Assembly: GCF_007859935.1 (NCBI RefSeq)
Contig: NZ_SJPO01000001.1
Span: 744,001-808,000, forward strand
Length of the DNA stretch: 64,000 nt
Source of the DNA: Posidoniimonas polymericola
Lineage (GTDB): Bacteria; Planctomycetota; Planctomycetia; Pirellulales; Lacipirellulaceae
Direction: 5' to 3'
Positions 12,996-53,088 of this stretch are shown here, piece by piece. How positions within the stretch are numbered: the stretch's first letter is position 1; each line of letters starts with the position of its first letter. The notes below the pieces were generated by a model. It had not been told where the DNA came from and searched no databases. It was given only the letters and a program-made list of their open reading frames with translations. The translations under genes were made by a program, and so were the position numbers.

Positions 12996-13076
12996 GTAGC
13001 CCCCGGCTCTGCCGGGGGATCGAACAGATGGCACGGTTTGCCCGCGGGACAATCCCCCGGCAGAGCCGGGGGCTAC
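12996..13076. repeat. Palindromic repeat family 2, complete copy
   Basis: GTAGCCCCCGGCTCTGCCGG (followed by GGGAT) at 12996 is repeated in perfect inversion (ATCCCCCGGCAGAGCCGGGG followed by GCTAC) ending at 13076, with about 30 bases between. Each arm is itself a hairpin. Another complete copy lies at 40041-40120 and a single arm at 33801-33826. Confidence 0.85.
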
Positions 13077-32473: not shown

Positions 32474-33742
32474 ATGGACGCTTCCTTCAATCCGCTGCTG
32501 TTTGTCGCTGGGGCAGGCGCGTGCGCGTTGGTCTTGGTCGGCGGCGGCGGAACGGCCCTCTCGCTGCTGCGTCGCCGCACCGGCATCCGCTCCCGGCGTC
32601 GGCAGAGCCACGAGGCGTTCCTCGAGCAGGTCGAACGCACCGCCGAACGCGCCCGGGCGAAGCTCAACCGCTCGCTCGCGTGGGAGGGCGCCAGACCGCT
32701 ACGCGTCGCCGCGGTGGTCGACGAGTGCGACGACGTGAAGTCGTTTTACTTTGCGTCGACCGACGGGCGGCCGCTGCCGCCGTTCCTGCCGGGCCAGTAC
32801 CTCACGCTCCACGTGCCGTGCGCCGCCGGCGGCAAGCAGGTAGTGCGGTGCTACTCGCTCTCCGACCGACCCCGCGAAGAATACTACCGCTGCACGATCA
32901 AACGCCAAGGCCCGCCCGGCGACCAGCCCGAGCTGCCGCCGGGGATCGGCAGCAACTTCCTGCACGACCACGTGCACACCGACGACGTCCTGCCGTGCGA
33001 GGCGCCCCGCGGGCCGTTCTACCTCGCCGCTCAGGGGGACGAGCCGGTGGTGCTGATCGGCGGTGGCATTGGGCTGACGCCGATGGTCAGCATGGCGAAC
33101 ACGCTCGCCCAGACCAACCCGACCCGGCGGGTCTACCTGTTCGCCGGCGTCCGCAACCGCGGCGAGTTCCCCTTCCGCGACCACCTGCGGTCGTTGGCCG
33201 AATCGCTGCCCGATTTCAAGCTGTTCTCGGTCTTCTCCCGGCCGACCAGCCAGGACGCCGACCACAAGGACTTTGACCACCACGGCCGGATCACGGTCGA
33301 CTACCTGCGGACGGTGCTCCCGTCTTGCAACTTCCCGTTCTACTTGTGCGGCCCGCCGGCGCTGATGCAGTCGCTCGTGCCGGGGCTGCTGGAGTGGGGC
33401 GTGCCCGACGATCAGATCCACTTCGAGGCCTTCGGCCCGGCCAGCGTGCGGCTGCCGAGCGACCGCAACCCGGCCGCCGAGGCGATCGGCGAGCCGGTCC
33501 GCTTCGAGCGCCAGGGCAAGGAATTTGTCTGGGAGGCCGGCGATGACTCGCTGCTGGACGTCGCGGTCAAGCACGGCGTGCCGGTCGAGTCGGGCTGCCG
33601 CGCCGGCAACTGCGGCCAGTGCGCCCTGAAGGTGCTGGCTGGCAAGGTCGCCACGCTCCGGACTCCGGGCGCCACGCCCCCCGACGGCCACTGCCTGGCC
33701 TGCGTCAGCGTGCCCGATGGGCCGCTGGTGGTGGACGCTTAG
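32474..33742 (+). CDS. Membrane-anchored FAD/NAD(P)H reductase with C-terminal [2Fe-2S] ferredoxin domain
   Basis: The 422-residue product has an N-terminal membrane helix (about residues 5-27) and a basic stop-transfer. The FAD domain has FLPGQYLTLHV and RCYSLSDRP (RxYS at 125-128). The NAD domain has GGGIGLTPMVSM (about 196) and FYLCGPPALMQSLV. A plant-type ferredoxin part has C375, C380 and C383 in SGCRAGNCGQCAL plus HCLAC near 407. It should oxidise NAD(P)H in the cytoplasm and pass electrons singly to the downstream Fe-S and heme proteins. An in-frame ATG at 32375 is possible, but the helix-proximal ATG 32474 is preferred. It is the first gene of the redox block. Confidence 0.88.
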   Translation: MDASFNPLLFVAGAGACALVLVGGGGTALSLLRRRTGIRSRRRQSHEAFLEQVERTAERARAKLNRSLAWEGARPLRVAAVVDECDDVKSFYFASTDGRPLPPFLPGQYLTLHVPCAAGGKQVVRCYSLSDRPREEYYRCTIKRQGPPGDQPELPPGIGSNFLHDHVHTDDVLPCEAPRGPFYLAAQGDEPVVLIGGGIGLTPMVSMANTLAQTNPTRRVYLFAGVRNRGEFPFRDHLRSLAESLPDFKLFSVFSRPTSQDADHKDFDHHGRITVDYLRTVLPSCNFPFYLCGPPALMQSLVPGLLEWGVPDDQIHFEAFGPASVRLPSDRNPAAEAIGEPVRFERQGKEFVWEAGDDSLLDVAVKHGVPVESGCRAGNCGQCALKVLAGKVATLRTPGATPPDGHCLACVSVPDGPLVVDA

Positions 33743-33800
33743 CAACGAAATGCAACGAATGACGCGAAACGAACGATACAGCTTGCCATCCGCATCGCCC

Positions 33801-33826
33801 GTAGCCCCCGGCTCTGCCGGGGGATT
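33801..33826. repeat. Palindromic repeat family 2, single arm
   Basis: GTAGCCCCCGGCTCTGCCGG plus GGGATT matches one arm of the elements at 12996-13076 and 40041-40120. The inverted second arm is missing. Confidence 0.75.
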
Positions 33827-33848
33827 GCCTGCATTGGGAACAGAAGAA

Positions 33849-33936
33849 CAGGAAATGGGGACTGGCTCGCGACCGTCCTGGCGGCAGATTGTCTTGCCTC
33901 CTACCCGACTGGGTCGCGTGCCTGTCCCCTTTTCCT
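33849..33936. repeat. REP-like imperfect palindrome, copy 3 (first of a pair)
   Basis: CAGGAAATGGGGACTGGCTC (followed by GCGACC) is mirrored by GGGTCGCGTGCCTGTCCCCT followed by TTTCCTG. It has the same core as the 4.7-4.9 kb elements and faces copy 4. Confidence 0.72.
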
Positions 33937-33970
33937 GCGGACCACCTGGGCGATGCGCCGCGACTCACTC

Positions 33971-34059
33971 ACACGAGAAAAGGGGACAGGCACGTCGCCT
34001 TCACAATCCAGTGCAGTTCCCACCGTTTCAGGGCGACGAGCCAGTCCCCGTTTTTCGTG
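33971..34059. repeat. REP-like imperfect palindrome, copy 4 (inverted partner)
   Basis: CACGAGAAAAGGGGACAGGC (then ACGTCGCC) is mirrored by GGGCGACGAGCCAGTCCCCG followed by TTTTTCGTG. It ends 20 bp before the proposed TTG start of the tetraheme cytochrome, so it occupies the leader of that gene and could affect its expression. Confidence 0.72.
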
Positions 34060-34079
34060 ACGCCGCCTTATCCCCGCGT

Positions 34080-35072
34080 TTGGGCCATGCCTTGCTGATC
34101 GCGTTCGTGTTGGCCGCTAGCGCGGCCGCGCAGGAGACACCCGACCTGCCCAAGTGCGACCCGGCCAAGGTGCTCGGCGACGAGGCCTGCGCCAAGTGCC
34201 ACCAGCAGGAGGTCAACCAGTGGCGGCTCACGCCGCACTACCGCACATTCGACATCCTGCACCGCAAGCCGGAGGCCAAGGCGATTGCCGACAAGCTGGG
34301 CCTCCGCTCGGTCAAGCGAAACGACACCTGCGTCCGCTGCCACTACACGCAGCAGGAGCAACGCGGCCGCGCGCGGGTGATCGCCGGCGTGAGCTGCGAG
34401 TCGTGCCACGGCGCGGCGGCCGACTGGGTCAACCTGCACGCCGACTACGGCGGCCCCAACGTCACCAAGCAGATGGAGTCGGCCGAGCACAAGAAGCAAC
34501 GCCGCCAGGCGAGCGTTGCGGCCGGCATGAACAACCCGTCGGACATCTACCTGATCGCCCGCCAGTGCCTCGGCTGCCACACCACGCCCGACGAGCAGCT
34601 AGTAAACGTCGGCGGCCACAACGCGGGCAGCGCCGGCTTCGAGCTGGTGAGCTGGTCGCAGGGAATCGTGCGGCACAACTTCCAGCGGACCGACGGCCAG
34701 TCGAACGCCCCCAGCAGCGTCGAGCAGCTGCGGGTGATGTACCTGGTGGGCGCGATGGCCGACCTCGAGATGAGCCTCCGCGCGGTTGCCAAGGCGACTA
34801 CGGCCGCCAACTTCGGTCAGCAGGCCGCCGCCCGGGCGGCGCGGGTCAAGCAGCGGCTGTGGGAGGCGCAGCGGCTGCTCGACGACCGGCTGATTGCCAA
34901 GGCGCTCGACGCGGTGGCGGAGCTCGAGCTGACGCTCGACAACGCCGACGCCATCCTCAACGCGGCTAACCGGGTCGGCAAGGCGGCGCAGGAGTTCTCC
35001 AAGACCGCCGACGGCGCGACGCTCGCCGCGATTGACCCGCTGCTGCCAACCGCCGACAAGTACAAGAACTGA
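34080..35072 (+). CDS. Exported tetraheme cytochrome c (c554-like)
   Basis: From TTG 34080 the 330-residue product has a short signal peptide (GHALLIAFVLAASAAA, cut before QETPDLP). Four CXXCH motifs follow at about residues 37 (CAKCH), 84 (CVRCH), 106 (CESCH) and 163 (CLGCH), with the c554-type context ACAKCHQQEVNQW. The last 100 residues form long Ala/Leu-rich helices without hemes. It should be a periplasmic electron carrier between the membrane modules encoded around it. The start is uncertain because the open frame continues upstream into repeats. Confidence 0.87.
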   Translation: MGHALLIAFVLAASAAAQETPDLPKCDPAKVLGDEACAKCHQQEVNQWRLTPHYRTFDILHRKPEAKAIADKLGLRSVKRNDTCVRCHYTQQEQRGRARVIAGVSCESCHGAAADWVNLHADYGGPNVTKQMESAEHKKQRRQASVAAGMNNPSDIYLIARQCLGCHTTPDEQLVNVGGHNAGSAGFELVSWSQGIVRHNFQRTDGQSNAPSSVEQLRVMYLVGAMADLEMSLRAVAKATTAANFGQQAAARAARVKQRLWEAQRLLDDRLIAKALDAVAELELTLDNADAILNAANRVGKAAQEFSKTADGATLAAIDPLLPTADKYKN

Positions 35073-35096
35073 TAGCTAATTCATTGCAACGCTTTT

Positions 35097-35182
35097 TCAC
35101 CACAGAGGGCACGGAGAGCACGGAGCACGCAGCAGATAAACCAGTGGTTGTTGTCTCAGTCTCCTCCGTGCCCTCTGTGGTT
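35097..35182. repeat. Palindromic repeat family 5 (CACAGAGGGCACGGAG type)
   Basis: CCACAGAGGGCACGGAGAGC followed by ACGGAG is mirrored by CTCCTCCGTGCCCTCTGTGG. The centre (about 35 bases) is not conserved within the window. It lies directly before the TTG start at 35191. Repeats of this type are widespread in planctomycetes. Confidence 0.7.
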
Positions 35183-35190
35183 TATTCAAT

Positions 35191-36927
35191 TTGATCACCA
35201 CCCAAGTCATCACCCGACCCCAACGCTGGGACGAGCCGTTCGACCCGGCGATGGACGACCGCGCCGTCTCGCGGCTGCTCGGCGTGCCGCCGTTCCGGGA
35301 GATGGACGAGCAGTCCTTCCCCGACCGGCTGCCGCTGCGGGCGATCTTGGCCAACGACACGCGGATCGTCAACTACAAGCCGGGCGACCTCATCATCCGC
35401 GAGGGTGAGTACGGCGCCAGCGCCTACCTGATGCTGCACGGCTCGGCCCGCATCGCGCTGGACGCGCTCGAGGAGGTGGCCGACAAGGAGCCGGTCAAGA
35501 AGCGGGGCCGCCTGACGCGGGCCGTCGCGCGGCTGTGGAACGCGCCGCTCGCCCGCGAGGTCCGACGCCGCCCCCGCGGGCAGCGGAATGCCCCGCGGCT
35601 GGGCCGACGCGGCGCCGGCGACCACCCGACGTTCTTCCTGCAGGACATCCCGCGGGTGATCCAAGACTGCTACACGCGTCCGCTGCAGCCGGGCGAGGTG
35701 TTCGGCGAGGTCGGCGCCCTGACCCGCAGCCCGCGCACGGCGTCGGTCTTCGCGGAGTCGGACTGCATCGTGCTCGAGATCCGCTGGCAGGGCCTCCGCG
35801 ACCTGATGCGGTACGCCCCGCAGATGAAGCAGCACGTTGAGAAGCTGTACCGAGAGAACAGCCTCCGCGTACACCTGCTCGAGACCCCGCTCCTCGCCCA
35901 CCTGTCCGACGAGCAGCTTGCCGCGGTGGCCGACGCCACCCGGTTCGAGACCCACGGCTCGTTCGACTGGCACTCGGACCTGCTGGGCGACAAGCCCGAG
36001 GACCTGTTCGCCCGCGTTGAACGCGAGCCGCTGGTCGCCGAGGAGGGCGCGCTGCCCGAGGGGCTGTTGCTGCTCCGCTCCGGCTTCGGCCGCGTCAGCC
36101 AACGTCGCGGCGACGGGCACCAGACCGTTTCGTACATCGGCAAGGGCGCCGCGTTCTGCGCGGCGGCGCTCGCCCACGGCTACCGCACCGGCGAGACGCC
36201 GCCGCTGCGGCTTTCGCTCCGCGCGGTGGGGTACCTCGACGTGCTCTTGATCCCGCTGTCGGTCTGGAACGAGGTGATCGCCCCCTCGCTGCCGCCGGAG
36301 GAGATGCAGGCGCTGCTCGACAACTACTGCGGCCAGCAGTGCGCCGCCGAGACCAGCCTGCCCGCCCGCACGCTCGACTTCCTGGTCGACCGGCGGCTGG
36401 TGAACGGCGAGCAGACGATGGTCATCGATCTCGACCGCTGCACCCGTTGCGACGACTGCGTCCGCGCGTGCGCCGCGACGCACGACGGCAACCCCCGCTT
36501 CGTGCGGCAGGGGCCGATCCACGACCACTTCCAGTACGCCAACGCCTGCATGCACTGCGTCGACCCGGTCTGCATGATCGGCTGCCCGACCGGCGCCATC
36601 CACCGCGACTCGGCGAGCGGCGTTGTGCGGATCAACGACCCGACCTGCATCGGCTGCTCGACCTGCGCCAACAGCTGCCCCTACCACAACATCCGCATGG
36701 TCGAGGCCCGCTCGCCGGCGGGCGACATCCTGGCCGACGACGCCGGGCTGCCGATCATCAAGGCGACCAAGTGCGACCTCTGCAGCGACCAACCCACCGG
36801 CCCCGCCTGCCAGCACGCCTGCCCCCACGACGCGCTCGCCCGGCTGAGCATCGCCGACAGCCAGCCGCTCGCCCAGTTCCTGAACCTCGACGTGCTGCCG
36901 AGTGAACGCCCGGGAGGCCCGGTGTGA
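35191..36927 (+). CDS. Cyclic nucleotide-binding domains fused to a four-cluster [4Fe-4S] ferredoxin
   Basis: The 578-residue product has two cNMP-binding domains. The first, residues 55-215, has a phosphate-binding cassette FGEVGALTRSPRTASVF at 171-187 keeping the key Glu and Arg; a degenerate second spans about 255-400. A DmsB/NrfC-like ferredoxin from residue 417 has four cysteine groups (CTRCDDCVRAC, CMHCVDPVCMIGC, CIGCSTCANSC, CDLCSDQPTGPACQHAC), 16 Cys in all. No signal peptide, so cytoplasmic. It looks like an electron-wire subunit whose activity or assembly responds to cAMP/cGMP. The TTG start at 35191 follows a repeat closely. It sits between the tetraheme and cytochrome b genes. Confidence 0.9.
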   Translation: MITTQVITRPQRWDEPFDPAMDDRAVSRLLGVPPFREMDEQSFPDRLPLRAILANDTRIVNYKPGDLIIREGEYGASAYLMLHGSARIALDALEEVADKEPVKKRGRLTRAVARLWNAPLAREVRRRPRGQRNAPRLGRRGAGDHPTFFLQDIPRVIQDCYTRPLQPGEVFGEVGALTRSPRTASVFAESDCIVLEIRWQGLRDLMRYAPQMKQHVEKLYRENSLRVHLLETPLLAHLSDEQLAAVADATRFETHGSFDWHSDLLGDKPEDLFARVEREPLVAEEGALPEGLLLLRSGFGRVSQRRGDGHQTVSYIGKGAAFCAAALAHGYRTGETPPLRLSLRAVGYLDVLLIPLSVWNEVIAPSLPPEEMQALLDNYCGQQCAAETSLPARTLDFLVDRRLVNGEQTMVIDLDRCTRCDDCVRACAATHDGNPRFVRQGPIHDHFQYANACMHCVDPVCMIGCPTGAIHRDSASGVVRINDPTCIGCSTCANSCPYHNIRMVEARSPAGDILADDAGLPIIKATKCDLCSDQPTGPACQHACPHDALARLSIADSQPLAQFLNLDVLPSERPGGPV

Positions 36928-36954
36928 CCCACTTGAAACGTCTGCCAACAAGAA

Positions 36955-37118
36955 TCCCCCTCCCCGGCAGGGGGAGGGGCTAGGGGAGGGGGTTTGTCAT
37001 CCGTTAGTTCGAACCCAACCTCTCCCCTCAAGACCTTTTTCTGCGCAGTACAGGAGCACCGACTCTACCGGACACCCAACCCCCTCCCTTGATCCCTCCC
37101 CCTGCCGGGGAGGGAGAT
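36955..37118. repeat. C/G-rich composite palindromic element, copy F
   Basis: TCCCCCTCCCCGGCAGGGGG and AGGGGCTAGGGGAGGGGG on the left, a middle with CCGTTAGTTCG and GCAGTACAGGAGCACC, and ACCCCCTCCCTTGATCCCTC then CCCCTGCCGGGGAGGGAG on the right. It splits the redox block between the Fe-S/cNMP gene and the cytochrome b-like gene. Confidence 0.87.
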
Positions 37119-37144
37119 TAACGTACTCGCCCTTCCTACCTCCC

Positions 37145-37969
37145 ATGAACAAGTTCGCACGCCGCCGATACCGCTGCAGCGCCGCCGCGCTGGCGCTGGT
37201 CGCTGCGCTGTGGGCGTGGCTGCGGTGGGTCGACGGGTCGCTCGGCGCGACTGCCTATCAGAGCGGCTACGTGCTGTACGGACTGATCGTCTTCCTGGCG
37301 GCGTACAACGCCCGCAAGAAGCTGCCCGGCCTGCCGCTGGGGAGCAGCCGCGCGTGGCTTCAGCTGCACCTGTACGTCGGCGTGGCGACTGTCGCGCTGC
37401 TAGGCATGCACATCAGCTGGCGGCTGCCCAACGGCTACTTCGAAACCGCGTTGGCGGGCGTGTTCGCGGCGACCGTGCTCAGCGGCGTGTGGGGGCTGTA
37501 CCTCACCCGCACGATCCCTCGGCAGCTCGCCCGCACGTCGGAGCAGATTGTGTTCGAGCGGATCCCCCGTCTGCGGAACGACTTGCTGCGTCGGTCGCGG
37601 GCGGCGGTGCTGGCCGGCGTCTCGCAGACCGGCTCGACGACGCTCGCCGAGTTCTACTCGACGCGGGTCGACAACTACCTGGCGGCGCCGCGCGGCGTCG
37701 GCTACTTCTTGCGTCCCTCGAGCGGCGTGCGGCGGCGTGTGATGGCCGAGCTGACCGACCTCCGCCGCTTCCTTACCCAGGCCGAGGAAGTCGCCGGCGA
37801 GACCCTGTTCGCCATCATCCGCAAGAAGGACGACCTCGACTTCCACCAGGCGCGGCAGGGGCTGCTCAAGGGGTGGCTCTTCCTGCACATCGCGCTCACC
37901 TACACGCTGCTCACGCTCGCCACGCTGCACGGCGTCGTGGCGCTCGCCATGCGGGGGGGCCACGCGTGA
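37145..37969 (+). CDS. Cytochrome b-like integral membrane protein
   Basis: The 274-residue product has five or six membrane helices. Helices one to four lie at about residues 12-28, 40-55, 70-88 and 97-118, with a pair near the C-terminus (245-270). A basic soluble loop of about 120 residues separates them. Membrane histidines in LQLHLYVGVATVALLGMHIS and in LFLHIALTY...LATLHG are spaced like bis-His heme b ligands, as in NarI- or ferric-reductase-like cytochromes b. It could carry electrons from the cytoplasmic Fe-S protein across the membrane to the decaheme protein, whose GTG start overlaps its stop (GTGA, 37966-37969). Heme binding is inferred. Confidence 0.8.
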   Translation: MNKFARRRYRCSAAALALVAALWAWLRWVDGSLGATAYQSGYVLYGLIVFLAAYNARKKLPGLPLGSSRAWLQLHLYVGVATVALLGMHISWRLPNGYFETALAGVFAATVLSGVWGLYLTRTIPRQLARTSEQIVFERIPRLRNDLLRRSRAAVLAGVSQTGSTTLAEFYSTRVDNYLAAPRGVGYFLRPSSGVRRRVMAELTDLRRFLTQAEEVAGETLFAIIRKKDDLDFHQARQGLLKGWLFLHIALTYTLLTLATLHGVVALAMRGGHA

Positions 37970-39969
37970 GACGCCTGTTCCACGACTTTGCCGAGGGCGA
38001 ATACGACCGCCCCAACCAACGCTACATCTGCGGCCAGGCCGACGAGGCCTGCGCGTGCCCCTTCGGCCCCACCCCCAAGGGCGCCTGCCCCGAGCTGGCC
38101 GAGTGCCAGCCCGTTAAGCAGGGCGACCGCTGGCGCTGCAACCGGCCCGCTACCCGCGGCGGTCCCTGCGACACCGACGACGGACACGGCGGAGCCGACG
38201 CCGGCCCCACGCCCGATGGGCAGTGCTGCCGCGTCAACAAGTGCTCGCCCCGACCCAGCCTGCGGGTGTTCCGCGGGCGGCTGGCGTGGGGCTCGGCGCT
38301 CTTGGTCGCCGGCGCGTTGGCGATGCTGATCGCGTCGCCGCTGAAGACCGAGGTCCTCGCGCCCGGCCCGCTCACGCAGCCGCACGCACAGCTGCTCGCC
38401 CGCGGCGACTGGCAGGGCCGCTGCGCCGCCTGCCACGTCGATCAGGACCGGCCGATGCTGCTGCTGGCGGTCGGCAACCTGACCGGGATGCACGCCGCCA
38501 GCGGAGGGACGGACGCCACCCAGTCCGACCTCTGCATGAACTGCCACCAGCAGCAGCTCGCCAAGAATTCGGCGCTGCTCGCCCACGGCCTACCCGCCGG
38601 CGTGCTCGAGCACGCAGGCGATGACCCGATCGCGTGCTCGACCTGCCACCGCGAGCACCACGGCGCGATGTTCGACCTCACCGCGATCTCTAGCGTCCGC
38701 TGCCAGTCGTGCCACCAGCAGCAGCATGACAGCTTCGCCGGCAGCCACCCCGACTTCGGCGCCTGGCCGTACCAGCGCCGCACCCGTGTGGCGTTCGACC
38801 ACGTGTCGCACATGAAGAAGCACCACGTAGAACAGAAGCAGGCGTTCGACTGCCGCGCGTGCCACCTCGAGTCACAAGGCAGCCGCAGCCTGGTGATGGC
38901 CAACTACGAGGCCGCCTGCGGCTCTTGCCATGATAAGGGGATCGCCGCCAGCAGCGGCGCCGGCCTGGCCATCATCGGCCTGCCGCTCTTGGACCTTGAT
39001 GCGATGGAGGACCACGGAGTCCCTATCGACGACTGGCCCCAGCAGGCGACCGGCGACTTCGACGGCGAGCTCCCCGCACCGCTGAAGCTCTTGTTGGCCG
39101 ACGAGCCGGCCCTCGTGGCACTGCTCGACAAGTACGGCGCCGGCTTCAGCTTCTTCGACATCGACCCCGACTCGGCCGACGACGTCCGCCACGCCGCCGC
39201 CCTGGTCGCCGCCATTCGCCAACTGATCGCCGACGCCGAGTCCGAGGGGCAGCAGGCGTGGGCCGACCGCCTCGCGAAGGTCGCTGGGCACCCCCTTACT
39301 GACGCCCAGCAGAAGACCCTGCTGGCCGGGCTGCCGGTCGACCTGGTCGCCCGGGCGGGACGCGGGTGGTTCAGCGGTGAAGAGGACGAAGATGCAAGAA
39401 CACCAAGCGAGCAGGCCGCCAAGCTGCCGGCCGGCGGCTGGTTTGTCAGCGACGTCGCGCTCACCCTCGGCTACAAGCCGCAGGGCCACGCCGACCCGTT
39501 GTTGACTGGCTGGATCGAGCTGATTGTGTCGTTGGGCGACCAGCATCACCTGGTCCGCGAGGCGGCGCTCGCCGAGCTCGCGCGGCCCGAGTCGCCCGGC
39601 CAGTGCCTCACCTGCCACAGCGTCGAGCAGACGCCGGGCGTCAATGGCAAGGGGGGCGGGCTGATGGTCAACTGGCTGCCGTACGACGCCACCCGCCAGC
39701 CGCGCGGCTTCACGAAGTTCAACCACGGCCCGCACATCACCGTCAGCGAGCTGGCCGACTGCACCGCCTGCCACCAGCTCGACGCGTCGGCCGAGACCTC
39801 CGCCGCGTACGTGTCGACGAACCCCCGCGACTTCGTCAGCCACTTCCTGCCGATGACCAAGGCCGACTGCGCCGCGTGCCACCAACCCCACGCCGCCGGC
39901 GACAACTGCGCCCAGTGCCACAACTACCACGTGGACCCGCTGGCCGCGGAGCTGACGCGCACGAAGTAG
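37966..39969 (+). CDS. Membrane-anchored decaheme cytochrome c with a Cys-rich N-terminal domain
   Basis: From GTG 37966 the product has 667 residues. Residues 1-105 hold ten cysteines (RYICGQADEACACPFGP...GACPELAEC...QCCRVNKC) and no CXXCH. A membrane helix follows at about 108-128 (AWGSALLVAGALAMLIA), then ten CXXCH motifs at about 153, 190, 224, 246, 296, 318, 547, 599, 635 and 648. Six are N-terminal and four C-terminal, around a heme-free 230-residue middle. The hemes face the periplasm; the Cys-rich part should be cytoplasmic and could bind Fe-S or zinc. It is coupled to the cytochrome b-like gene and is the likely terminal module of this chain. Confidence 0.9.
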   Translation: MRRLFHDFAEGEYDRPNQRYICGQADEACACPFGPTPKGACPELAECQPVKQGDRWRCNRPATRGGPCDTDDGHGGADAGPTPDGQCCRVNKCSPRPSLRVFRGRLAWGSALLVAGALAMLIASPLKTEVLAPGPLTQPHAQLLARGDWQGRCAACHVDQDRPMLLLAVGNLTGMHAASGGTDATQSDLCMNCHQQQLAKNSALLAHGLPAGVLEHAGDDPIACSTCHREHHGAMFDLTAISSVRCQSCHQQQHDSFAGSHPDFGAWPYQRRTRVAFDHVSHMKKHHVEQKQAFDCRACHLESQGSRSLVMANYEAACGSCHDKGIAASSGAGLAIIGLPLLDLDAMEDHGVPIDDWPQQATGDFDGELPAPLKLLLADEPALVALLDKYGAGFSFFDIDPDSADDVRHAAALVAAIRQLIADAESEGQQAWADRLAKVAGHPLTDAQQKTLLAGLPVDLVARAGRGWFSGEEDEDARTPSEQAAKLPAGGWFVSDVALTLGYKPQGHADPLLTGWIELIVSLGDQHHLVREAALAELARPESPGQCLTCHSVEQTPGVNGKGGGLMVNWLPYDATRQPRGFTKFNHGPHITVSELADCTACHQLDASAETSAAYVSTNPRDFVSHFLPMTKADCAACHQPHAAGDNCAQCHNYHVDPLAAELTRTK

Positions 39970-39988: not shown

Positions 39989-40040
39989 AAACGAACCCCG
40001 GTCAGCCATTCACGCCGGGCGTCGCCCCGCCAAACACCTC

Positions 40041-40120
40041 GTAGCCCCCGGCTCCGCCGGGGGACCGTCCTGCGAAATGACTCAACCGGCGTGCAATCCC
40101 CCGGCAGAGCCGGGGGCTAC
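40041..40120. repeat. Palindromic repeat family 2, complete copy
   Basis: GTAGCCCCCGGCTCCGCCGG (then GGGAC) and the inverted ATCCCCCGGCAGAGCCGGGG (then GCTAC) surround about 30 bases. Almost the same as the element at 12996-13076. Confidence 0.85.
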
Positions 40121-40142
40121 TAGTCGCACGGCGTGTCGACGC

Positions 40143-41969
40143 CTACTCGTCGTCGGCGTCGTCAGAGATCCGGTTAGTGTTCTCCTCAAGCTGCTTCATG
40201 AGGTCTTCGTCGTAGACTGGAGCCGGCGGTGGTGGCGGCTCCCAGTAGAGGGCGTCCAGGCTGAGGTCGCCCCGGTTGTCGGCGCCCCAGTAGATGATCC
40301 CTTCGGTCGGCTCGGGCGGCTTACCCCCGTCATCAACGCCGTCGGCCCAGATGCTGTAGACCTGGTAGCCTTCGTCGGTGCGGCGGTATCGAAGCGCCGC
40401 GCTGTCGTCTGCAAACGGGTCGGTCGGAACGGCGTCGAGAATTTCCGGCACAAGTGTGTCAAGTTTCTCGGGCAGTCTGCCATGCTGTCGCTGGTACATT
40501 TCGACAGCGTACTCGAGTCGTAGCAGCCGCAAGGTGGCAAGGTGACGGTAGCAGGCCAAGCGGAATGGCTCGCTTGCCCAGCTAGGGCTTCCGAACGTCG
40601 AGAGAATCTCGCAGAGGTGGCCATCCTAACCCATCGCCCGCTGGGACCACACCTTGTCTCGCAGCATGATCTGGTCGATGGCGTCGACACGAAGTTCGGC
40701 GGCCTCAAGACGTTCAACAATGTCGCCGAGCCGCTCGCGTGGGGCCGAGTGCTTCAGCTCTCGGAGCGGTTCAACACCCATGCCGCTGCACGCAATTCCG
40801 ATCAGGGTGTCTACCATTAGTCCACCTCGCGTCAAACTGCAGCCGTAGTCAAGGACGGTGAGGTAGTCGTCGACCGCATCCGATAGTCTGCCTTGCTTCT
40901 CGTGGAGCCTTCCGCTAGCAGCGAACCCTCGGCTAAGAGTTCGGAGTCCGCCGAAGTCGGGTACGTCAAGGTCTTCCATAGTGTAGGTAAGGCGGCGGAA
41001 GACGTCCTTGGTGACTCCTGATCGCACGAGTTCCAAAGCTTGATCGACCTCGGCGACGACCGCCTGCAACTGGGGTGTCGTCGCTGTGTCGACATCAAAC
41101 GCCCAGGTATCTACCGTTGGAGAGGCGGGCAGGGCGCTGGCCGCCTGCAGGTAGTCTTCGAAACCGTTCGGATCTGGCAAAGTGCATTCGGGAATCGGTG
41201 TGCGGTGGGTTAGCCTGGCCAGCATGTAGAGCAGCGGGGCGACGGTAAGCAATGCTAAAGCCACGCCAGTGCCAAGTCGCAGCCGGCTCGACGACCTGTA
41301 AGTGCCGGGTGTGCCCAGGAAGCAGAGCTTCGTTAGGACGGCCACCGCAACCGCAACGCCGATCGACACGACCAGCCACTCGAGGTGAACGTCGAAGCTG
41401 TTGGTGGAGACCAGCAACGCGTCGAGGATCTTTTGTTCGCCATCGTAGGTCCATTCGAGCGTCTCGCGAACTTCCGGCAGGGTCTGTTCGAAGAACGCCA
41501 GCGGCACGGCGACGATCACCGTGCCTAGCAGCGCCAGGCTCCATCGTTGGAGACCTCCCCGCGATGCCCACAACGCCAGGAGTGTCGTTAGGCCAAACGC
41601 GAAGCCCACCATCGCGGGGCTGAGCAGGTCGAGAAAGACAAATTCTTCCTGCGCAGCGAAGGCTGCGAGTACCCAAGCCAGCGGGACCACGGCCAACAGC
41701 GCGTCCCGCAGCGCGAACCGCGATCCGCCTCTATCCGCTCGATCCCGTCGCCGCCACCGCCACGCCTGGACGCCGAGCGCGACCACCAGCCCCTGCAGCA
41801 CGAAGGCGACGAACATCTCGTACGCCGGGATCAGCAGCGGCAGCGAGGCGACCGCCAGGAAGGCCATCGTCCGCACGAACCAGTGCCGCGTTGAGGTCGC
41901 CGCCCAGGCAGCAATCAGGCCGACCGACGTGAGCGTCGTGAACAACAGCAGGGCAGGAGCGAAGACCAT
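40143..41969 (-). pseudogene. Multi-pass membrane protein interrupted by an in-frame TAG
   Basis: ATG 41969 (MVFAPALLLFTTLTSVGLIA) opens a frame with about eight N-terminal membrane helices and a soluble part, ending at TAG 40626-40628 after 447 residues. The same frame continues without another stop to 40143 (DGHLCEILSTFG, then YRHLATLRLLRLEYAVEMYQ and a C-terminal PTDPFADD segment). That continuation aligns with the C-terminus of the intact paralog at 42003-43766, where the stop position corresponds to the Trp in LGGWTGHLGEIL. One G-to-A change (TGG to TAG) therefore explains the break. The intact length would be 608 residues. It is the second gene of a two-gene tandem, 33 bp behind its paralog. 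Function unknown. Confidence 0.8.
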
Positions 41970-42002
41970 GCGGGCGATTGTATCCGATCGGGCGTGCCAG
42001 GC

Positions 42003-43766
42003 TTACTCGCCCTCTTCGAGCTGCCCGTACATCGCGTCGAGGCTCAGGTCGCCGGCGATGTCCGCGTTCCAGGAGACCTCGCCGTTTGCCTCGCGGGGTG
42101 GGGCGCCGTGGTCGTCGCCGCCGTCGGTCCAAACGCAGTACAGCCGATAGCCCTCGCCGCTGCGGGCGTACCGCAGCGGCGCGTCGTCTGCCGCGTACGG
42201 GTCCGTGGGGACCGCCGCAAGAATGGCCGGCGTGAGTTGCTGCAGGTTGTCGGGCCAGGCGCTGTGCCGGTGGTGGTAGAGTCGCAGGGCGTACTCGACC
42301 TGCAGCAGCCGTAGCGACGCAAGGAACTGGCGGTAGGACGCCCGTGAAGAGAGGAATGCGGGACGCGTCAGGCTGTCGCTGACGCCGAGGATTTCGCCCA
42401 GGTGGCCGGTCCAACCCCCTAGGCGTTGCATGAACCTTCCTTCCTTCAGCGCGATGCTGCGGAAGTCTTCGGCCCGTTGGTCGGCCGCGGCGATCTCGGC
42501 GATCACGCCCGGGTAGGCGCTCGGCGGCGTCGACTCGCGGATTTCGTACAGCCCTTCGGCTCCCTGACCACCGCACGCCGCGGCGACCATGGCGTCGACC
42601 ATCAGCCCTCCGCGGCTCAGGCAGGCGCCGTACTGCGCGAGCAACGCGTACGCCCTCGCGGCTTCGGCGGGCGAGCCGTCGGACTCCAGCGAACTGGCGT
42701 AGGAGTCGAGCGAACGGGCCACCGCCTTGTAGTCGCCAACCTTGCTGAGGTGAGCTTCGAACGCAGCCATCGATGGCTCTGCGGAGTGGGCCCGCTGCAG
42801 CCGAATGTCATTCTCGAGTCCCATTTTCACGAGTTCGGCGACCTGTTCTTGCCTCGCAATCATCGCCTCAATCTCTGCTGGCGAGGCGAGGCCCGCCTCG
42901 GTGTTGTCGTCGCTCGGCACGTCGAGCGGCGTCAGCAAGAGCAGCCGGGCCTGATCGAAGTGCACAATGCCGTTGTGAAGCGGGATCTCTTCCCGCGGCA
43001 GCGGCGCCGGGTGGTCGAGCAGGTAGAGCGTCATCAGGGGCGCCGCGACGATCAGGACCGCAAGCGCTCCGTACGCGATCGCACCGCAGCGGCGCTTCGA
43101 CCCTTCGCCCTGGTGCAGTCGCAGCCCCCAGGCAACGCAGGCGGCGACAGACGCCAACGCCGTCAGCGCAACCAACCAGAGTGGGTCCGATGGGGTCTCA
43201 ACTCGTTCCCAGCGGAGCAGCGCCTCGGTTGGCTGCGCAATCTGGTAGCCGAGCGAGGCGAGCAGCTGTGCCCAGGAGGGCGCGAGCAGCACGGCGGCGA
43301 CAACGGCAATCGCGGCTAGGGCCATCCGCACCCAGCGGTTCCACGGGACCGCGGCAACCAGCCACAGGGCGACCACAAAGAGGAGGCCGCTAACGGCGCC
43401 CGCCAGCAACATGCCGCCCCACCGATCCGGGCCGAGCGCCGGCATCCGCGCCAACACGGTGCAAACCGCGGCAACCGGGATCACCGCCAGCAACAGGTCA
43501 CGCATGGCGAACTGCGACCCGCGCCGCTGGCCCGCGGCACGCCGCCGCACCCACCGCCACACCCCTACGCCGGCGACAACCGTGCCGCCCGCGGCGGCGA
43601 TCGCGATAGTGAGCTCGTACGCCGGGATCACGAGCGGCAGCGCGGCGACTCCCAGCAGCACCAGCGTCCGCGTCAACCAGTGACGCGGCGACGTCGCGGC
43701 CCAGGCGGCGATCAGGCCGACCGTCGCAATCGTGGTGAGCAAGAGTAGGGTCGAGGCTAGGACCAT
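42003..43766 (-). CDS. Multi-pass membrane protein, intact paralog of the interrupted gene
   Basis: The 587-residue product has about eight N-terminal membrane helices (MVLASTLLLLTTIATVGLIA, then ALPLVIPAYELTIAIAAAGG and others) up to residue about 250. A soluble C-terminal part follows with helical repeats (SKVGDYKAVARSLDSYASSL) and a small C-terminal domain, YALRLYHHRHSAWPDNLQQL with AVPTDPYAADDAPLRY. The last domain resembles the mature part of type IV pilin/GspG-like proteins (PxDPYGxPxxY), a comparison I regard as tentative. It lies directly upstream of its paralog and is probably cotranscribed. Function unknown. Confidence 0.78.
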   Translation of the reverse strand: MVLASTLLLLTTIATVGLIAAWAATSPRHWLTRTLVLLGVAALPLVIPAYELTIAIAAAGGTVVAGVGVWRWVRRRAAGQRRGSQFAMRDLLLAVIPVAAVCTVLARMPALGPDRWGGMLLAGAVSGLLFVVALWLVAAVPWNRWVRMALAAIAVVAAVLLAPSWAQLLASLGYQIAQPTEALLRWERVETPSDPLWLVALTALASVAACVAWGLRLHQGEGSKRRCGAIAYGALAVLIVAAPLMTLYLLDHPAPLPREEIPLHNGIVHFDQARLLLLTPLDVPSDDNTEAGLASPAEIEAMIARQEQVAELVKMGLENDIRLQRAHSAEPSMAAFEAHLSKVGDYKAVARSLDSYASSLESDGSPAEAARAYALLAQYGACLSRGGLMVDAMVAAACGGQGAEGLYEIRESTPPSAYPGVIAEIAAADQRAEDFRSIALKEGRFMQRLGGWTGHLGEILGVSDSLTRPAFLSSRASYRQFLASLRLLQVEYALRLYHHRHSAWPDNLQQLTPAILAAVPTDPYAADDAPLRYARSGEGYRLYCVWTDGGDDHGAPPREANGEVSWNADIAGDLSLDAMYGQLEEGE

Positions 43767-44280: not shown

Positions 44281-45894
44281 TTAGAACTTCCACCGCAGCT
44301 CGCCACGCACGCCGCTGATGTCGCGGGAGTTCTCGAGCCAGCCGTGCATCGCGTCGACGCGGATGAGGTAGGCGTTGGTGATCGGCAGCTGCCAGCGGGC
44401 GCCGACGCCGTACTGCGGACCGGGCGCGTTGCGGGTGGCGTCGTCGTCGAAGGTGTGCAGCGCGGCGGCCTCGACGATGAGCTGCTGGTTGAAGTTCGGC
44501 GCGGCGAGCAGGTCCAGGCCGATCGAAGCGCCGAGCGTGTTGTTGCCGCTCGCGTCCAGCGTCGGGTAGCCGGTGAGCGCGTCGCTCTGGAACAGGATGC
44601 CGGTGTTGAATAGTACGCCGCCGGCCGCGGCCGCCCGGGCGGCGGGCTGGGGGCGGCCAATGCCGGCGAAGAAGTTGCAGTACGGGATGACGTTGTACGG
44701 GTTCTGGGTAATGAGCGAGTTCTCCACCAGGAGCAGCACGCCGTCGGCCGTGCGTTGGCGGCGGGGGCCGCTCTGCCCCTCGTTGACAATCACGCGGACC
44801 GAGTTTGACACGGCGCCCAGGTACCGCCGCGTGTACGAAAGGCCAAGGTTGTGGTAGTCGCGGCCAATGTCCTCGTCGTCGGCCACATAGGCGTAACCGA
44901 TTTCAAAGTACCCGCCGCGGGCCTCAATGAACGTGGTGGCGCCGAACAGGGAGCCGGTGTGCAGCGAATTGCCAAACGCGTCGGTCGACACCTGATCGAA
45001 CGCTGTGAAGAACGTGATGTCGTAGTTGGACCAGTCGAGCCACGGGTTGTTGCGGGCCGGCAGGGTGACCGCGGCGCCCCAGAACGCGTCGAGCATCCAG
45101 GTGCCGTTTTGGAACAGCATCGGGATCAGGCCGACGGTCACCGGCAGGTCGAACGGGGCGTAGGTGTGCTCCCAGCCGCCGAGCATCTGGCCGAGGTCGC
45201 CCTCGAAGAACAGCGTGTCGGTGTTGGCGCTCCAGAAGTCGATCTCGTTCTTGAAGCTACCATTCTCGAACCGGGTGAACGCCGCGCCGTCCTGCAGCGG
45301 CCCGGTGAAGGCGTGGATCCGCTCGGTCGAGGTGATCCAGTAGTCGAGTTCGAGGTTGAGCCGCGCGGCGAGGACGTCGGTCTCGCGGTTGACGTTGCGG
45401 TTCACGGCGGCGCCGACGCGGTAGTCGCCGTAGACGTAGAACTTTTGTTGGACCGGGTTGGTGGGGCCGCACCAGCACTCGGTCTGCGGGATGGGACCAT
45501 TGGAGTAGAACGGCATACCGCCCTCGACCCACGGCCGCTGGGTCGGGACCTCGTACCGGCCGCCGTAGACGTCGAGCGCGGCGCACGGGTCGTACTCACC
45601 CTGCCAGTAGCACGGGTCGGGGCTGAAGTCGCACCCGCCGGGGACGACCGGTTGAGCGTGGCAGTCGACCGCGCACTCCTCCACGGGGGGGAGGCAGCGG
45701 ACCGACGCCGGCGGCGGCGGCAAGAACCCGTAGCGGCCCACGCTCGGCTTGTAGTGCGACTGCGCCGCCGACGTCTGGCAGTTCGGCGGGAGCTGCACGT
45801 GCGCGCCGGGCGCCACCGCCCACGCCGGCTGCGCCGCGGTCGCGAAGATCGCGAGCAGGCAAGCAATGCGGCGGGTGGCGGTGGTGAGTTGCAA
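44281..45894 (-). CDS. Outer-membrane beta-barrel (porin-like) protein
   Basis: The 537-residue product has a signal peptide (RIACLLAIFATAAQPAWAVA), then a Cys/Pro-rich N-terminal part (CLPPVEECAVDCHAQP...CDFSPDPCYW...ECWCGP) and a barrel region of amphipathic strands (KFYVYGDYRVGAAVNRNVN, RLNLELDYWIT, RVIVNEGQSGPRR) ending in RGELRWKF, the aromatic C-terminal signature of BAM substrates. It follows the pentaheme cytochrome gene on the same strand with repeat copy H between. That gene order suggests a pore or anchor partner for the cytochrome, which is inference. The exact barrel family was not recognised. Confidence 0.82.
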   Translation of the reverse strand: MQLTTATRRIACLLAIFATAAQPAWAVAPGAHVQLPPNCQTSAAQSHYKPSVGRYGFLPPPPASVRCLPPVEECAVDCHAQPVVPGGCDFSPDPCYWQGEYDPCAALDVYGGRYEVPTQRPWVEGGMPFYSNGPIPQTECWCGPTNPVQQKFYVYGDYRVGAAVNRNVNRETDVLAARLNLELDYWITSTERIHAFTGPLQDGAAFTRFENGSFKNEIDFWSANTDTLFFEGDLGQMLGGWEHTYAPFDLPVTVGLIPMLFQNGTWMLDAFWGAAVTLPARNNPWLDWSNYDITFFTAFDQVSTDAFGNSLHTGSLFGATTFIEARGGYFEIGYAYVADDEDIGRDYHNLGLSYTRRYLGAVSNSVRVIVNEGQSGPRRQRTADGVLLLVENSLITQNPYNVIPYCNFFAGIGRPQPAARAAAAGGVLFNTGILFQSDALTGYPTLDASGNNTLGASIGLDLLAAPNFNQQLIVEAAALHTFDDDATRNAPGPQYGVGARWQLPITNAYLIRVDAMHGWLENSRDISGVRGELRWKF

Positions 45895-45910
45895 AGTAGG
45901 TTCGACTGGT

Positions 45911-46102
45911 TCCCCTCCCCCATGGGGGGAGGGGCTAGGGGAGGGGGTAGGTTGTCCGCTAGTGGAGCTGTTCCTGTACTGGCCTTGTGCTCGTTTGATA
46001 GTCAGGGGAGGGACATCATGTTTTGCGGCCCGACCCCCTCCCTCAATCCCTCCCCCCGTGGGGGAGGGAGGTTAGTGCTCGCCGCTTTGCGGCATTGCTC
46101 TG
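45911..46102. repeat. C/G-rich composite palindromic element, copy H (full length)
   Basis: TTCCCCTCCCCCATGGGGGG and AGGGGCTAGGGGAGGGGGTA on the left; a middle with TGTCCGCTAGTGGAGC, TTCCTGTACTGGCCTTGTGC and TGATAGTCAGGGGAGGGACA; on the right GCGGCCCGACCCCCTCCCTC, AATCCCTCCCCCCGTGGGGG and GCCGCTTTGCGGCATTGCTC. Confidence 0.88.
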
Positions 46103-46116
46103 TACTAAGCCCACTG

Positions 46117-49100
46117 TTACCTCACATAGAACTCAACCGACCGGTGGTGCATGTCCAAGATTCCTTCGTTCATCATCCGGACCATGTCGTCGGTCGCCTC
46201 GCAGAAACGCATGAACCAGATTGGCTCGATGCGGTTCCGAAGGCGGAACGACAAGCGGTACTTGCCGGGCGCCTGGATCAGCTCTTTGGGGATCTTGTAG
46301 TGCACGCGTTTCGTGCCGAGTGGGGCGATCGAGCGGCTCTCCATGCGGATGAACGGCGGGTGATTCATCGTCGTGATCGGGTTGGCGCCGGGGCGGAGGA
46401 ACGGCAGCTGGTCGATGTCGACGTTGACCGGCAGCGGCATCTCGCGGTCGGTGCCGGTGGCGCCGGTGATCAGGAACATCGTCTGCAGGTTGAACAACTG
46501 GTGGTCGAACGGCGCCCGGTTGAGCTGCACGTCGCGCGAGTGGATGTCGCACAGGTCGCCGTCGGAGTCGGTGTAGCCCGACTCCCAGAGGCGGTCGCCG
46601 TTCGGGCCGATCAGCACCACGTTGGCCCACAATTGCGGCTGCGCGCCGAGCGATGCGGTCAGCACGTTGTGCCCCTCGTTGAGGTTGGTGACGTCGTAGT
46701 ACAGGCGGATCGGGGCCCCGCGGGCCGGCTCGTGCTTGAAGTAAGGGCCGGCGACGTGCATGTGGTCCGTCATGATCTCGCGGCGCTTCGCGTTCTTCTT
46801 CTCGAGCGCCTTGAGGTTGTCGTCGATCACCTCGCGGGCGTCGAAGCGGTCGTCGGCCTCCTGCCACTCCGGCGGGAAGTGCGCGACCAGCTTGCCGTCG
46901 TCCAGCGCGTCCTCAAAGTCGTCAGTGCCCCAGCCGGCCCGCCAGTTGAACTTCAGCCACTGCTGCATCGTCCACCGCTCGGCGTCCTTGTTGTGGGGGA
47001 ACACGCCGGGGTGGCTGATCGAGTAGTTCGGCCCGTAGAACATGTGGTTGGCGTGCTTGCGCTGCTTGTTGACGGCCTTGCCGCCGACCTCGGCGATGGG
47101 GCCGATCTCGTAGCCCGAGGCCTCGCCCGGCTTCAGGCCCATGTGGCAGTCCTGGCACGTGACGCCCTTCTTGCACGCGGGCGACTGGCGATACTGCTCC
47201 CACACCACCTCGAGCTTGATGCCGGGGTGCACCGCCACCTGGTGGCACGAGGTGCAGAACTCGGCCTTGGAGAGCTGGTCGAAGTACCGGCCCTCGAGGT
47301 GGATCGGCTGCCCCGCGCCCTTCTGGTCGGGCGAGGTCTTCACCTTGTAGTGGTCCGCCTTGGCGATCGCCGCCGCCACGCCGTCGCCGCCAATGCCGCC
47401 GTACACGGGCGCGTAGATGTCGCCCGGCACGATCCGCCGCTCGCCGTTCGCCTTGGTGTAACGCTCGTTGATGCGGTGGCAGGCGATGCAGGTCACGCCC
47501 TCGCGGGCGACCTTCGGCATTTCCCACAGCGGGGTCGCGCGGTTCTCGCCCAGTGCGGTGCCGACCGGCGAGTGGCAGCGGTAGCAGAAGTAGCCCACCG
47601 TGCCCTGGCTGAGGTCGGTGATCTTCTGCTCGAACTTCTGGAACATCGGCGAGACAAACGCGTACGCGTGGCTCGACACCCGCCACTCGTCGTACAGCTG
47701 CTTGTGGCACTCGCCGCACTCCTGGGCCGACGGGTAGCAGTTCTTGGCGAACAGCTCGCGGTGGGCCCCGATCGAGCTCAGCTTGCTGTCGGTCGCCGCG
47801 CCGCCGGCGGCCGAGGGGACCGAGTGCGGCGCTCCGTGGGCGGCGCCGCTAGCCGACGCGGCAGCAGGCAGCCTGGGCGCCGGCGCCGCGAACACCGGCT
47901 CCGGAGTAATCGGCCGCTGCTCACGCGGCTGCATCCCACCGCCATCGCTGCTCATGACGCGCCGCGGCGCCGCCGCGCGTTGCTGAGTTGGTTGCGGCTG
48001 CGCCGGCTTGGGAACCACTTCGACGGGCTTGCTCGGCTGCGGGAGCGGATCGACCGCCCGCTGGGACCGCTGCGGCATCCCCTCGGGCTGCTTCGCCGGT
48101 TGCTCTATGGGCTGCTTTATTGGCGCCGGCAGAGCCGATCGCGGCGCGTCGAACAGCGACCGACCCGGCTTTGCGGGAGCGACCGGTGGCGCCGACGGTT
48201 GCTGCGGTGGCAGGGGCTGCTCGCTCCGCTCAATCGAAGGCGCGGGACGCGTCGGCGGTTCGGGCTTGGTGGGTGGGGTCGGTTTGGGCACGACCGGCGG
48301 TCCGGCGTCCGAGGGCGACGCGGGCTCGCCGCCGAAGCCCAAGTCCGGCCCCTCGATGGCGTCGGGAGTCCACAGCCGCGAGTCGACGCTGGGGGCGGCG
48401 GGCGGTTCCGCGGACCCCCCGGCCGGAGCGGGGGACTCGGCGATCTTGGTGGGCCCGGGGGCGGCCGGCGGCTGATTGTTGCGAGGCTCGGCGGTGGCAG
48501 GCGGGGCGAGTTCAATCGCGTCGGCCTCCAGCGCATCTGGGTCAGGGGGAGTTGCCGCCAACGGGGCGGTAGCAGGTGGTTGGGCAGCCGGCGGCGCGAT
48601 GGTCACGGCGGGCCCGTCGTTGGGGGCCTCCACCGGTGCTCCCGCAGAAGACTCGGCGGGAGCTTTGTCGGCGGCCGGCTCGGCGGCCGCCCCGCCGTTA
48701 GCCTCCTTGTCCTCGGGCACGAACCAGTCGCCCGGTGGCACCAGCCAATCGCCGCGGTCCGTGTTCTGGGCGACACGCAGCGAGCGAACCGGCTGCTCGG
48801 TCGCGCGCATCGCGACGCGGATCGGTTCGCGTTGCGGGCTCGGCATCGCGTCGGTTTGCTGGCTGGCGACCGGCGGCGGCGCCAGGCCTTCGCGGTCGAA
48901 CAGGTCGAGCGCGTGGGGACACGCGGCGCCGATCATCGCCCGGAGCTCCGGGTCGGGCGGCAGCCGGCGGACCGTTGGGGCAGGAGACTCGGCCGGAGTG
49001 GGAGCAGAAGCGATAGAGGGGCGGCTAGTCGGTGGAGCAGAGGCAGATGCTGCCGCAACCGAGGTTGGTTCGGCGGCCATCGTTGGAGCGACCGCGGCCG

Positions 49101-49233
49101 TCGTGTCGGGCTGCGCCGGCCGAGCCAGGTCACGCGAGGCGAGCTGCACCGCGCGGGCGCCCACCAGCAGGCCGGCTGCGACGAGCAGGCCTACCAGGAT
49201 CGGCGGGGACGAGTTCGGGCGGGGTGTCGCCAA
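46117..49233 (-). CDS. Membrane-anchored pentaheme cytochrome c with a long Pro/Ala linker
   Basis: From TTG 49233 the product has 1038 residues. A membrane helix lies at about 11-30 (ILVGLLVAAGLLVGARA), followed by some 460 residues of low-complexity Pro/Ala/Ser sequence. A c554-like domain then has CXXCH at about 506 (CGECH), 549 (CYRCH), 581 (CIACH), 661 (CTSCH) and 696 (CQDCH). The C-terminal 270 residues are beta-rich and heme-free (PIRLYYDVTNLNEGHNVLTA, ending SVEFYVR). The linker is long enough to place the hemes far from the inner membrane. With the downstream barrel gene this suggests electron transfer across the envelope, which is inferred. Confidence 0.9.
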   Translation of the reverse strand: MATPRPNSSPPILVGLLVAAGLLVGARAVQLASRDLARPAQPDTTAAVAPTMAAEPTSVAAASASAPPTSRPSIASAPTPAESPAPTVRRLPPDPELRAMIGAACPHALDLFDREGLAPPPVASQQTDAMPSPQREPIRVAMRATEQPVRSLRVAQNTDRGDWLVPPGDWFVPEDKEANGGAAAEPAADKAPAESSAGAPVEAPNDGPAVTIAPPAAQPPATAPLAATPPDPDALEADAIELAPPATAEPRNNQPPAAPGPTKIAESPAPAGGSAEPPAAPSVDSRLWTPDAIEGPDLGFGGEPASPSDAGPPVVPKPTPPTKPEPPTRPAPSIERSEQPLPPQQPSAPPVAPAKPGRSLFDAPRSALPAPIKQPIEQPAKQPEGMPQRSQRAVDPLPQPSKPVEVVPKPAQPQPTQQRAAAPRRVMSSDGGGMQPREQRPITPEPVFAAPAPRLPAAASASGAAHGAPHSVPSAAGGAATDSKLSSIGAHRELFAKNCYPSAQECGECHKQLYDEWRVSSHAYAFVSPMFQKFEQKITDLSQGTVGYFCYRCHSPVGTALGENRATPLWEMPKVAREGVTCIACHRINERYTKANGERRIVPGDIYAPVYGGIGGDGVAAAIAKADHYKVKTSPDQKGAGQPIHLEGRYFDQLSKAEFCTSCHQVAVHPGIKLEVVWEQYRQSPACKKGVTCQDCHMGLKPGEASGYEIGPIAEVGGKAVNKQRKHANHMFYGPNYSISHPGVFPHNKDAERWTMQQWLKFNWRAGWGTDDFEDALDDGKLVAHFPPEWQEADDRFDAREVIDDNLKALEKKNAKRREIMTDHMHVAGPYFKHEPARGAPIRLYYDVTNLNEGHNVLTASLGAQPQLWANVVLIGPNGDRLWESGYTDSDGDLCDIHSRDVQLNRAPFDHQLFNLQTMFLITGATGTDREMPLPVNVDIDQLPFLRPGANPITTMNHPPFIRMESRSIAPLGTKRVHYKIPKELIQAPGKYRLSFRLRNRIEPIWFMRFCEATDDMVRMMNEGILDMHHRSVEFYVR

Positions 49234-50131: not shown

Positions 50132-50138
50132 GCAATTC

Positions 50139-51020: not shown

Positions 51021-51027
51021 ACAATTC

Positions 51028-51915: not shown

Positions 51916-51926
51916 TAATCCATTCC

Positions 51927-52994: not shown

Positions 52995-53088
52995 CAAACC
53001 GTGCAAAGAGGAGGTAAGTGCAGTCGCGGAGCAGAGTTTTTCCACAGGACGTCATCCACGGGGAGGCAGCGAAATGCAGAGCGCTACC

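Follow-up and report, generated by a model that had tools for sequence, protein, structure and literature searches.

Electron conduits of the porin-cytochrome type, such as MtrCAB, Pcc of Geobacter and ExtHIJKL, pair a multiheme cytochrome with an outer-membrane barrel. ExtKL is reported to belong to a pentaheme family related to cytochrome c552, and extKL is clustered with the outer-membrane porin gene extI in a cluster proposed for extracellular electron transfer (PMC11976967). The inner-membrane quinol dehydrogenases of extracellular electron transfer, CymA, CbcL and ImcH, have been surveyed as well (PMC6295460). In this work we analyzed a stretch of 64,000 nucleotides from Posidoniimonas polymericola (Pirellulales, Lacipirellulaceae; contig NZ_SJPO01000001.1, positions 744,001 to 808,000), called the window below. 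It carries seven genes, A to E on the plus strand and P5 and OMP (named for a putative outer-membrane protein) on the minus strand (Table 1), which from their sequences probably encode a quinone-independent conduit from NAD(P)H to the outer membrane, gated by a cyclic nucleotide. Genes A to E would be its cytoplasmic and inner-membrane half, and P5 with OMP its outer-membrane half. We regard the set as a variant form of porin-cytochrome conduit.

As in porin-cytochrome conduits, a multiheme cytochrome is paired here with a putative outer-membrane barrel, P5 being nearest to ExtKL and pentaheme c552. Unlike in them, P5 and OMP score above no family cut-off, with no MtrB/PioB match in Pfam, and one cluster includes a putatively nucleotide-regulated NAD(P)H-side module in place of a quinol oxidase. 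Electrons would be handed to periplasmic multiheme cytochromes, as by CymA, CbcL and ImcH, and D with E resembles the CbcL logic of a cytochrome b plus a multiheme cytochrome c. In contrast to these enzymes, the b and c parts are separate genes, cyclic nucleotide-binding (CNB) domains are present, and entry looks like NAD(P)H-FAD-[2Fe-2S]-4x[4Fe-4S] and not quinol. The Tmc, Hmc and Dsr-type complexes of sulfate reducers are similar in having a cytoplasmic Fe-S protein, a cytochrome b and a periplasmic multiheme cytochrome in one operon; they differ in that no NrfD or CCG subunit was found here, and in the CNB fusion, FNR-type flavoprotein and outer-membrane module of the present set. Each part is of a known kind. 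In the titles, abstracts and passages of the literature searched, no description of the CNB-ferredoxin/multiheme set was found, nor of the combination of a CNB-gated ferredoxin hub with cytochrome b, decaheme cytochrome and a pentaheme/outer-membrane pair. Porin-cytochrome complexes have been reported in planctomycete metagenome-assembled genomes (MAGs), in passages that do not describe such a set (PMC10732223).

Table 1. Features of the seven-gene set, with their positions in the window.
Feature	Description	Positions	Strand	Evidence
Gene A	Membrane-anchored FAD/NAD(P)H oxidoreductase, C-terminal plant-type [2Fe-2S] domain	32474..33742	+	Pfam, hydrophobic helix, homologues
Gene B	Periplasmic tetraheme c554-family cytochrome, signal peptide	about 34011..35072	+	Pfam, CxxCH count
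Gene C	Fusion of tandem CNB domains with a ferredoxin module of four [4Fe-4S]	35191..36927, TTG start	+	Pfam, alignment, Foldseek
Cassette in C	Phosphate-binding cassette of the first CNB domain (FGEVGALTRSPRTAS)	35701..35745	+	Alignment, distant homologues
Fe-S motifs in C	Four [4Fe-4S] motifs	36415..36846	+	Sequence and alignment
Gene D	Five-transmembrane cytochrome b-like protein with a cytoplasmic helical domain	37145..37969	+	Alignment, AlphaFold model, hydrophobic segments
Gene E	Decaheme c-type cytochrome, Cys-rich cytoplasmic N-terminus, one transmembrane anchor	37966..39969	+	CxxCH counts, alignment
OMP	Exported protein with a C-terminal Phe, paired with P5; putative outer-membrane beta-barrel	44281..45894	-	C-terminal residue, pairing
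P5	Pentaheme cytochrome (c554/c552/ExtKL-like), N-terminal hydrophobic segment, Pro-rich linker	46117..49233	-	CxxCH count, PDB match, co-occurrence

Genes A to E and their conserved order

The original prediction had placed five genes in one direction at 32474-39969. All five open reading frames (ORFs) were found on the plus strand, and Pfam and motif counts recovered the domains it had named: FAD/2Fe-2S in A, a tetraheme B, 4x[4Fe-4S] and CNB in C and a decaheme E. The A-B-C-D-E order recurs in the loci compared, with about 50% identity across the Lacipirellulaceae and about 40-85% across independent genomes. Homologues of C were detected in 28 of the 43 genomes of Lacipirellulaceae that formed our family sample. 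In the phylum sample of 392 genomes of Planctomycetota, searched with gene C at E<=1e-60 and with matches graded as strong or partial, C-type proteins were present in 44 (35 strong, the others partial). Three of 237 genomes from the phylum of a MAG labelled Myxococcota also have C homologues, two of them strong. Because the same genes occur in the same order in independent genomes, the grouping is far from chance; an order kept over genera, families and one other phylum rules out a chance adjacency of unrelated redox genes. A conserved neighborhood in related genomes, the absence of which had been named beforehand as refuting the original prediction, is strongly evident across both family and phylum. 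The most constant portion of the block is C-D-E. In one genome (G023, locus L052) D and E are found together about 53 kb from the rest, so their loss was ruled out in favor of a rearrangement.

Gene A matches NAD_binding_1 (9.4e-17), a C-terminal Fer2 (3.1e-11) and FAD_binding_6 (2.4e-6) of Pfam, all above cut-off, and has a single hydrophobic helix at its N-terminus. It shares with NqrF and other FNR-type reductases a membrane-anchored FAD/NAD domain with [2Fe-2S], but its [2Fe-2S] domain is C-terminal, the partner subunits of Na+-NQR are absent, and every match to an NCBIfam model is under cut-off. Homologues of A are present in most loci; the gene is missing from L041, L101 and L102, and also from L040 and L043, which are cut by a contig end or short. 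Gene B matches Cytochrome_C554 (1.3e-17) and has four CxxCH motifs in 35 of 35 homologues. Its start codon is uncertain, lying anywhere from GTG 34011 to TTG 34110, and the gene is missing from L039, L041 and L097. In L041, from Roseimaritima, a PAS-GGDEF protein (7249-9066) upstream of C occupies the place of A and B.

The ORF of gene D opens at 36902, but homology begins only at the ATG at 37145, giving a protein of 274 amino acids. Four His are invariant in the alignment, H75 and H89 in the third transmembrane helix (TM3) and H248 and H262 in TM5, with a spacing of 14 residues; the AlphaFold model (pLDDT 89.9) places them in TM3 and TM5, as hydrophobicity does. By the positive-inside rule both helices would run in the same direction, and the arrangement is the pattern expected of two stacked b-hemes, which suggests a two-heme transmembrane cytochrome b and agrees with the cytochrome b-like membrane protein originally predicted. 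No Pfam family matched D above cut-off, isolated weak matches to Ferric_reduct and DUF4405 apart. Structure comparison gave a middling Z of 7.7 to cytochrome b561, amid unrelated helical bundles, and the Foldseek matches were generic helical bundles.

Gene E starts at the GTG of GTGA, a 4-nt overlap with the stop of D that had been noted originally. Ten CxxCH were counted in 35 of 37 homologues, the other two ORFs being truncated at the end of a contig, and the CxxCH columns are invariant. The N-terminal cytoplasmic stretch (37966-38280), ahead of the single transmembrane helix, contains 9-11 Cys in most species, with few or none in L036, L045, L104, L105 and L106. This segment has no family match and could hold an extra metal center. 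At least four additional decaheme-like paralogues of E, one with 14 CxxCH, are encoded at other sites in one genome (G145; L182, L181).

Palindromic REP/MITE-like repeats of this species occupy the A-B, B-C and C-D gaps and a spot just 3' of E (33801-33828, 35099-35181, 36953-37119 and 40018-40143); a further copy of the element (TAGCCCCCGGCTC) is located at 12997-13075. They widen intergenic gaps that are often short in relatives.

Gene C and the linked nucleotide cyclases

Gene C matches cNMP_binding (7.5e-22) and Fer4_7 (6.5e-12) of Pfam. The 16 Cys of its four ferredoxin motifs are invariant in the alignment of 22 homologues, as are G172 and E173 of the cassette in the first CNB domain, where 19 homologues have Arg and three have His at residue 182. 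This domain has the G-E ... R-x-A phosphate-binding cassette of cyclic-nucleotide-regulated proteins, and nearly every distant homologue of C, phylum-wide, carries the motif FGE..A..R.PR.A. Sequence and fold searches of the CNB part point to the tandem CNB modules of PKG and the PKA regulatory subunit, which were the top Foldseek matches; in the model of C (pLDDT 66.6) the CNB part is usable and the Fe-S part is of low confidence. The tandem arrangement and the cassette are shared with these modules. The differences are that the output of C is a ferredoxin module and not a kinase, that the cassette of the second CNB domain is degenerate, and that the first carries an insertion of about 70 residues.

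The gene immediately upstream of the block, and divergent from it, codes for an FHA-domain class III nucleotide cyclase in about 15 of the 33 distinct loci. Such genes are rare, so their repeated adjacency is not due to chance. The linked cyclases retain both metal-binding Asp and, except in L098, the transition-state Asn and Arg. Their substrate-selecting positions are atypical, so that either ATP or GTP may be the substrate. Three class III cyclases are encoded in the genome of P. polymericola, none of them linked to the block.

The conduit may exist and be ungated, its CNB domains being structural relics that bind no nucleotide. The degenerate second cassette and the lack of a linked cyclase in this genome would fit such relics, but the first cassette is kept phylum-wide and the cyclase is a recurrent direct neighbor, and we consider this unlikely, though worth keeping in view. 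Regulation is favored as a real property of the system because signaling domains have been joined to electron-entry proteins more than once.

The putative outer-membrane pair P5 and OMP

According to the original prediction, no terminal reductase of a named pathway was present. This holds inside 32474-39969, but two more conserved components are found at 44281-49233, namely OMP and P5. With these included, there is still no Pfam or NCBIfam model that assigns the set to a named reductase, as had been anticipated: assignment to a nitrite, DMSO, TMAO or tetrathionate reductase was rejected, with no NrfA or molybdopterin subunit above cut-off among A to E, P5 and OMP, and NCBIfam matches far under cut-off.

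Among the 43 family genomes, 27 have both P5 and C, 14 have neither, and two are discordant, one in each direction and both incomplete (Fisher 2.8e-9). In the phylum sample P5 is found in 33 of 35 strongly C-positive genomes versus 17 of 357 others (Fisher 4.9e-33); both p-values ignore shared ancestry and are indicative only. Genomes with P5 30-190 kb away or on another contig are included in this co-occurrence, and OMP is still beside P5 there; P5 adjoins OMP, a multiheme cytochrome gene beside that of a putative outer-membrane protein, in every complete P5 locus examined. Presence and absence of P5 and C are both seen inside four genera (g2, g3, g12 and g13). The C-negative genomes are not simply unreadable, since a paralogous cyclase was detected in many of them.

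In the family the pair is downstream of the block on the opposite strand, and in the window three genes separate it from E. Five distant loci (L099, L100, L105, L106 and L107) have all seven genes pointing the same way, as P5>OMP>A>B>C>D>E, with gaps down to 3 nt or overlaps of 4 nt. L105 and L106 are nearly gapless, and in the ORF table of L107 D overlaps its neighbors. The order in L104 is B>C>D>E>P5>OMP. Judged by gene distribution and order, the P5-OMP pair appears to belong to the A-E system.

Exactly five CxxCH are present in every complete homologue of P5. The best PDB match of the P5 profile is 5ze8, a pentaheme cytochrome c552 (1.2e-18). The ExtKL model NF040886 is matched by 21 of 22 members at E<=0.001, under its curated cut-off of 250 (26.4 bits for P5 of the window). 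Family members have a Pro-rich linker of several hundred residues before the hemes (47700-49233 in the window), which is absent from distant P5 proteins and could span a wide periplasm.

The last residue of OMP is Phe in 21 of 22 homologues and Tyr in one, and a signal peptide is predicted. No PDB relative was found, there is no Pfam match at 0.1 except one chance match, and MtrB_PioB was not matched. From the signal peptide, the nearly invariant C-terminal Phe and the pairing with P5, OMP is predicted to be an outer-membrane barrel, and P5 and OMP are predicted to be located at the outer membrane.

Several neighboring genes were also observed. Three minus-strand genes with similar C-terminal segments (40143-43766) lie between E and OMP, a gap that is far smaller in many relatives. 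Secreted proteins whose C-termini are PEP-CTERM-like, and which have dockerin-like repeats, are encoded in tandem on the minus strand at 49505-53045. A second type of cassette is present beside P5-OMP in L170 (4812-7151, 823-3597), L171 and L180, with C-like CNB-ferredoxin proteins, D-like proteins and 15- and 17-heme cytochromes; the A-like protein of L170 is an FHA-FNR-[2Fe-2S] fusion.

Proposed electron path and its alternatives

From the parts, their heme and Fe-S motifs, the conserved order, the co-occurrence and the conserved cassette we infer a redox order and direction, a ligand and its gating role, a barrel fold and an extracellular acceptor. Electrons of NAD(P)H would enter A at FAD, pass to its [2Fe-2S] and then to the four [4Fe-4S] clusters of C. 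The two b-hemes of D, the inner with the His pair H75/H248 and the outer with H89/H262, would take them across the membrane to the 10 hemes of E, anchored at the periplasmic face. With its 4 hemes B could ferry them across the periplasm to P5, whose 5 hemes may sit in or at the OMP barrel and pass them to an acceptor located at the outer membrane or beyond it. The quinone pool would be bypassed by this chain. The CNB pair of C could gate the flow: with a cyclic nucleotide bound, the ferredoxin module would dock differently on A or D. In many relatives this nucleotide would be made by the divergently encoded FHA-cyclase. The chain of the original prediction, uncharacterised, nucleotide-regulated and transmembrane, gains support from the neighborhood, the CNB cassette and the divergent cyclase in about 15 loci; it appears incomplete, as it stops at the periplasm and omits P5 and the putative OMP barrel.

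Several observations weigh against the proposed conduit. Neither this genome nor its genus has the linked cyclase, and a CNB fold can have another nucleoside as its ligand or none at all. The fold of D has no confident match (none at E<=0.001 in Foldseek). OMP belongs to no recognizable family, and a crude home-made strand-alternation score did not set it apart. P5-OMP occurs without C in 17 genomes of the phylum sample, and gene sets are inherited together in related sequences, so that the p-values given above make the genomes look more independent than they are. The donor of electrons can vary, since some lineages have no A (L101, L102 and L041) or lack B, as listed above.

Electrons could also flow inward, from Fe(II), a partner cell or a mineral through P5-OMP and then E, D, C and A, to reduce NAD(P)+ or ferredoxin under nucleotide gating. 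Such conduits are reversible in principle, and lineages without A could hand electrons to another cytoplasmic acceptor. However, A is an FNR/PaaE/Hmp-type protein, and in those members of this type that have been characterised electrons travel from NAD(P)H to the Fe-S center; inward flow seems improbable to us. A terminal reductase in the periplasm or outer membrane is another candidate, in which P5 would be catalytic for a small soluble acceptor (nitrite, hydroxylamine, peroxide or a sulfur compound) and OMP a mere substrate pore. P5 is akin to c554/c552 cytochromes, with a weaker relationship to the NrfA/NrfH families, and its alignment has a conserved C-terminal domain after the hemes. Its closest relatives, c552 and ExtKL, are nevertheless electron-transfer pentahemes, the NrfA model PF02335 is under cut-off on P5, and no NrfA-type active site was identified in it, which makes a catalytic P5 improbable as well. 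It is very doubtful that A, C, D and E form a regulated inner-membrane ferric or flavin reductase, dissipative or assimilatory, for iron acquisition or redox poise beside an independent P5-OMP pair, as the weak Ferric_reduct and DUF4405 matches of D and the sometimes distant P5-OMP might suggest, because P5 and C co-occur almost perfectly even when unlinked and all seven genes form single-direction clusters.

Extracellular electron transfer is not a known trait of planctomycetes, the anammox group aside. The set occurs phylum-wide, cultured Pirellulales included (Botrimarina and, in shortened form, Roseimaritima). If the outward, gated conduit proposed here is correct, NAD(P)H would have a direct, quinone-free link to the outer membrane, and a second messenger would control electron flow directly rather than transcription. 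Tentatively, planctomycetes may thus possess a phylum-wide, quinone-independent line that exports electrons of NAD(P)H to the cell surface, with its current switched directly by a second messenger on a ferredoxin subunit, which would be the first respiratory-type conduit under allosteric cyclic-nucleotide control.

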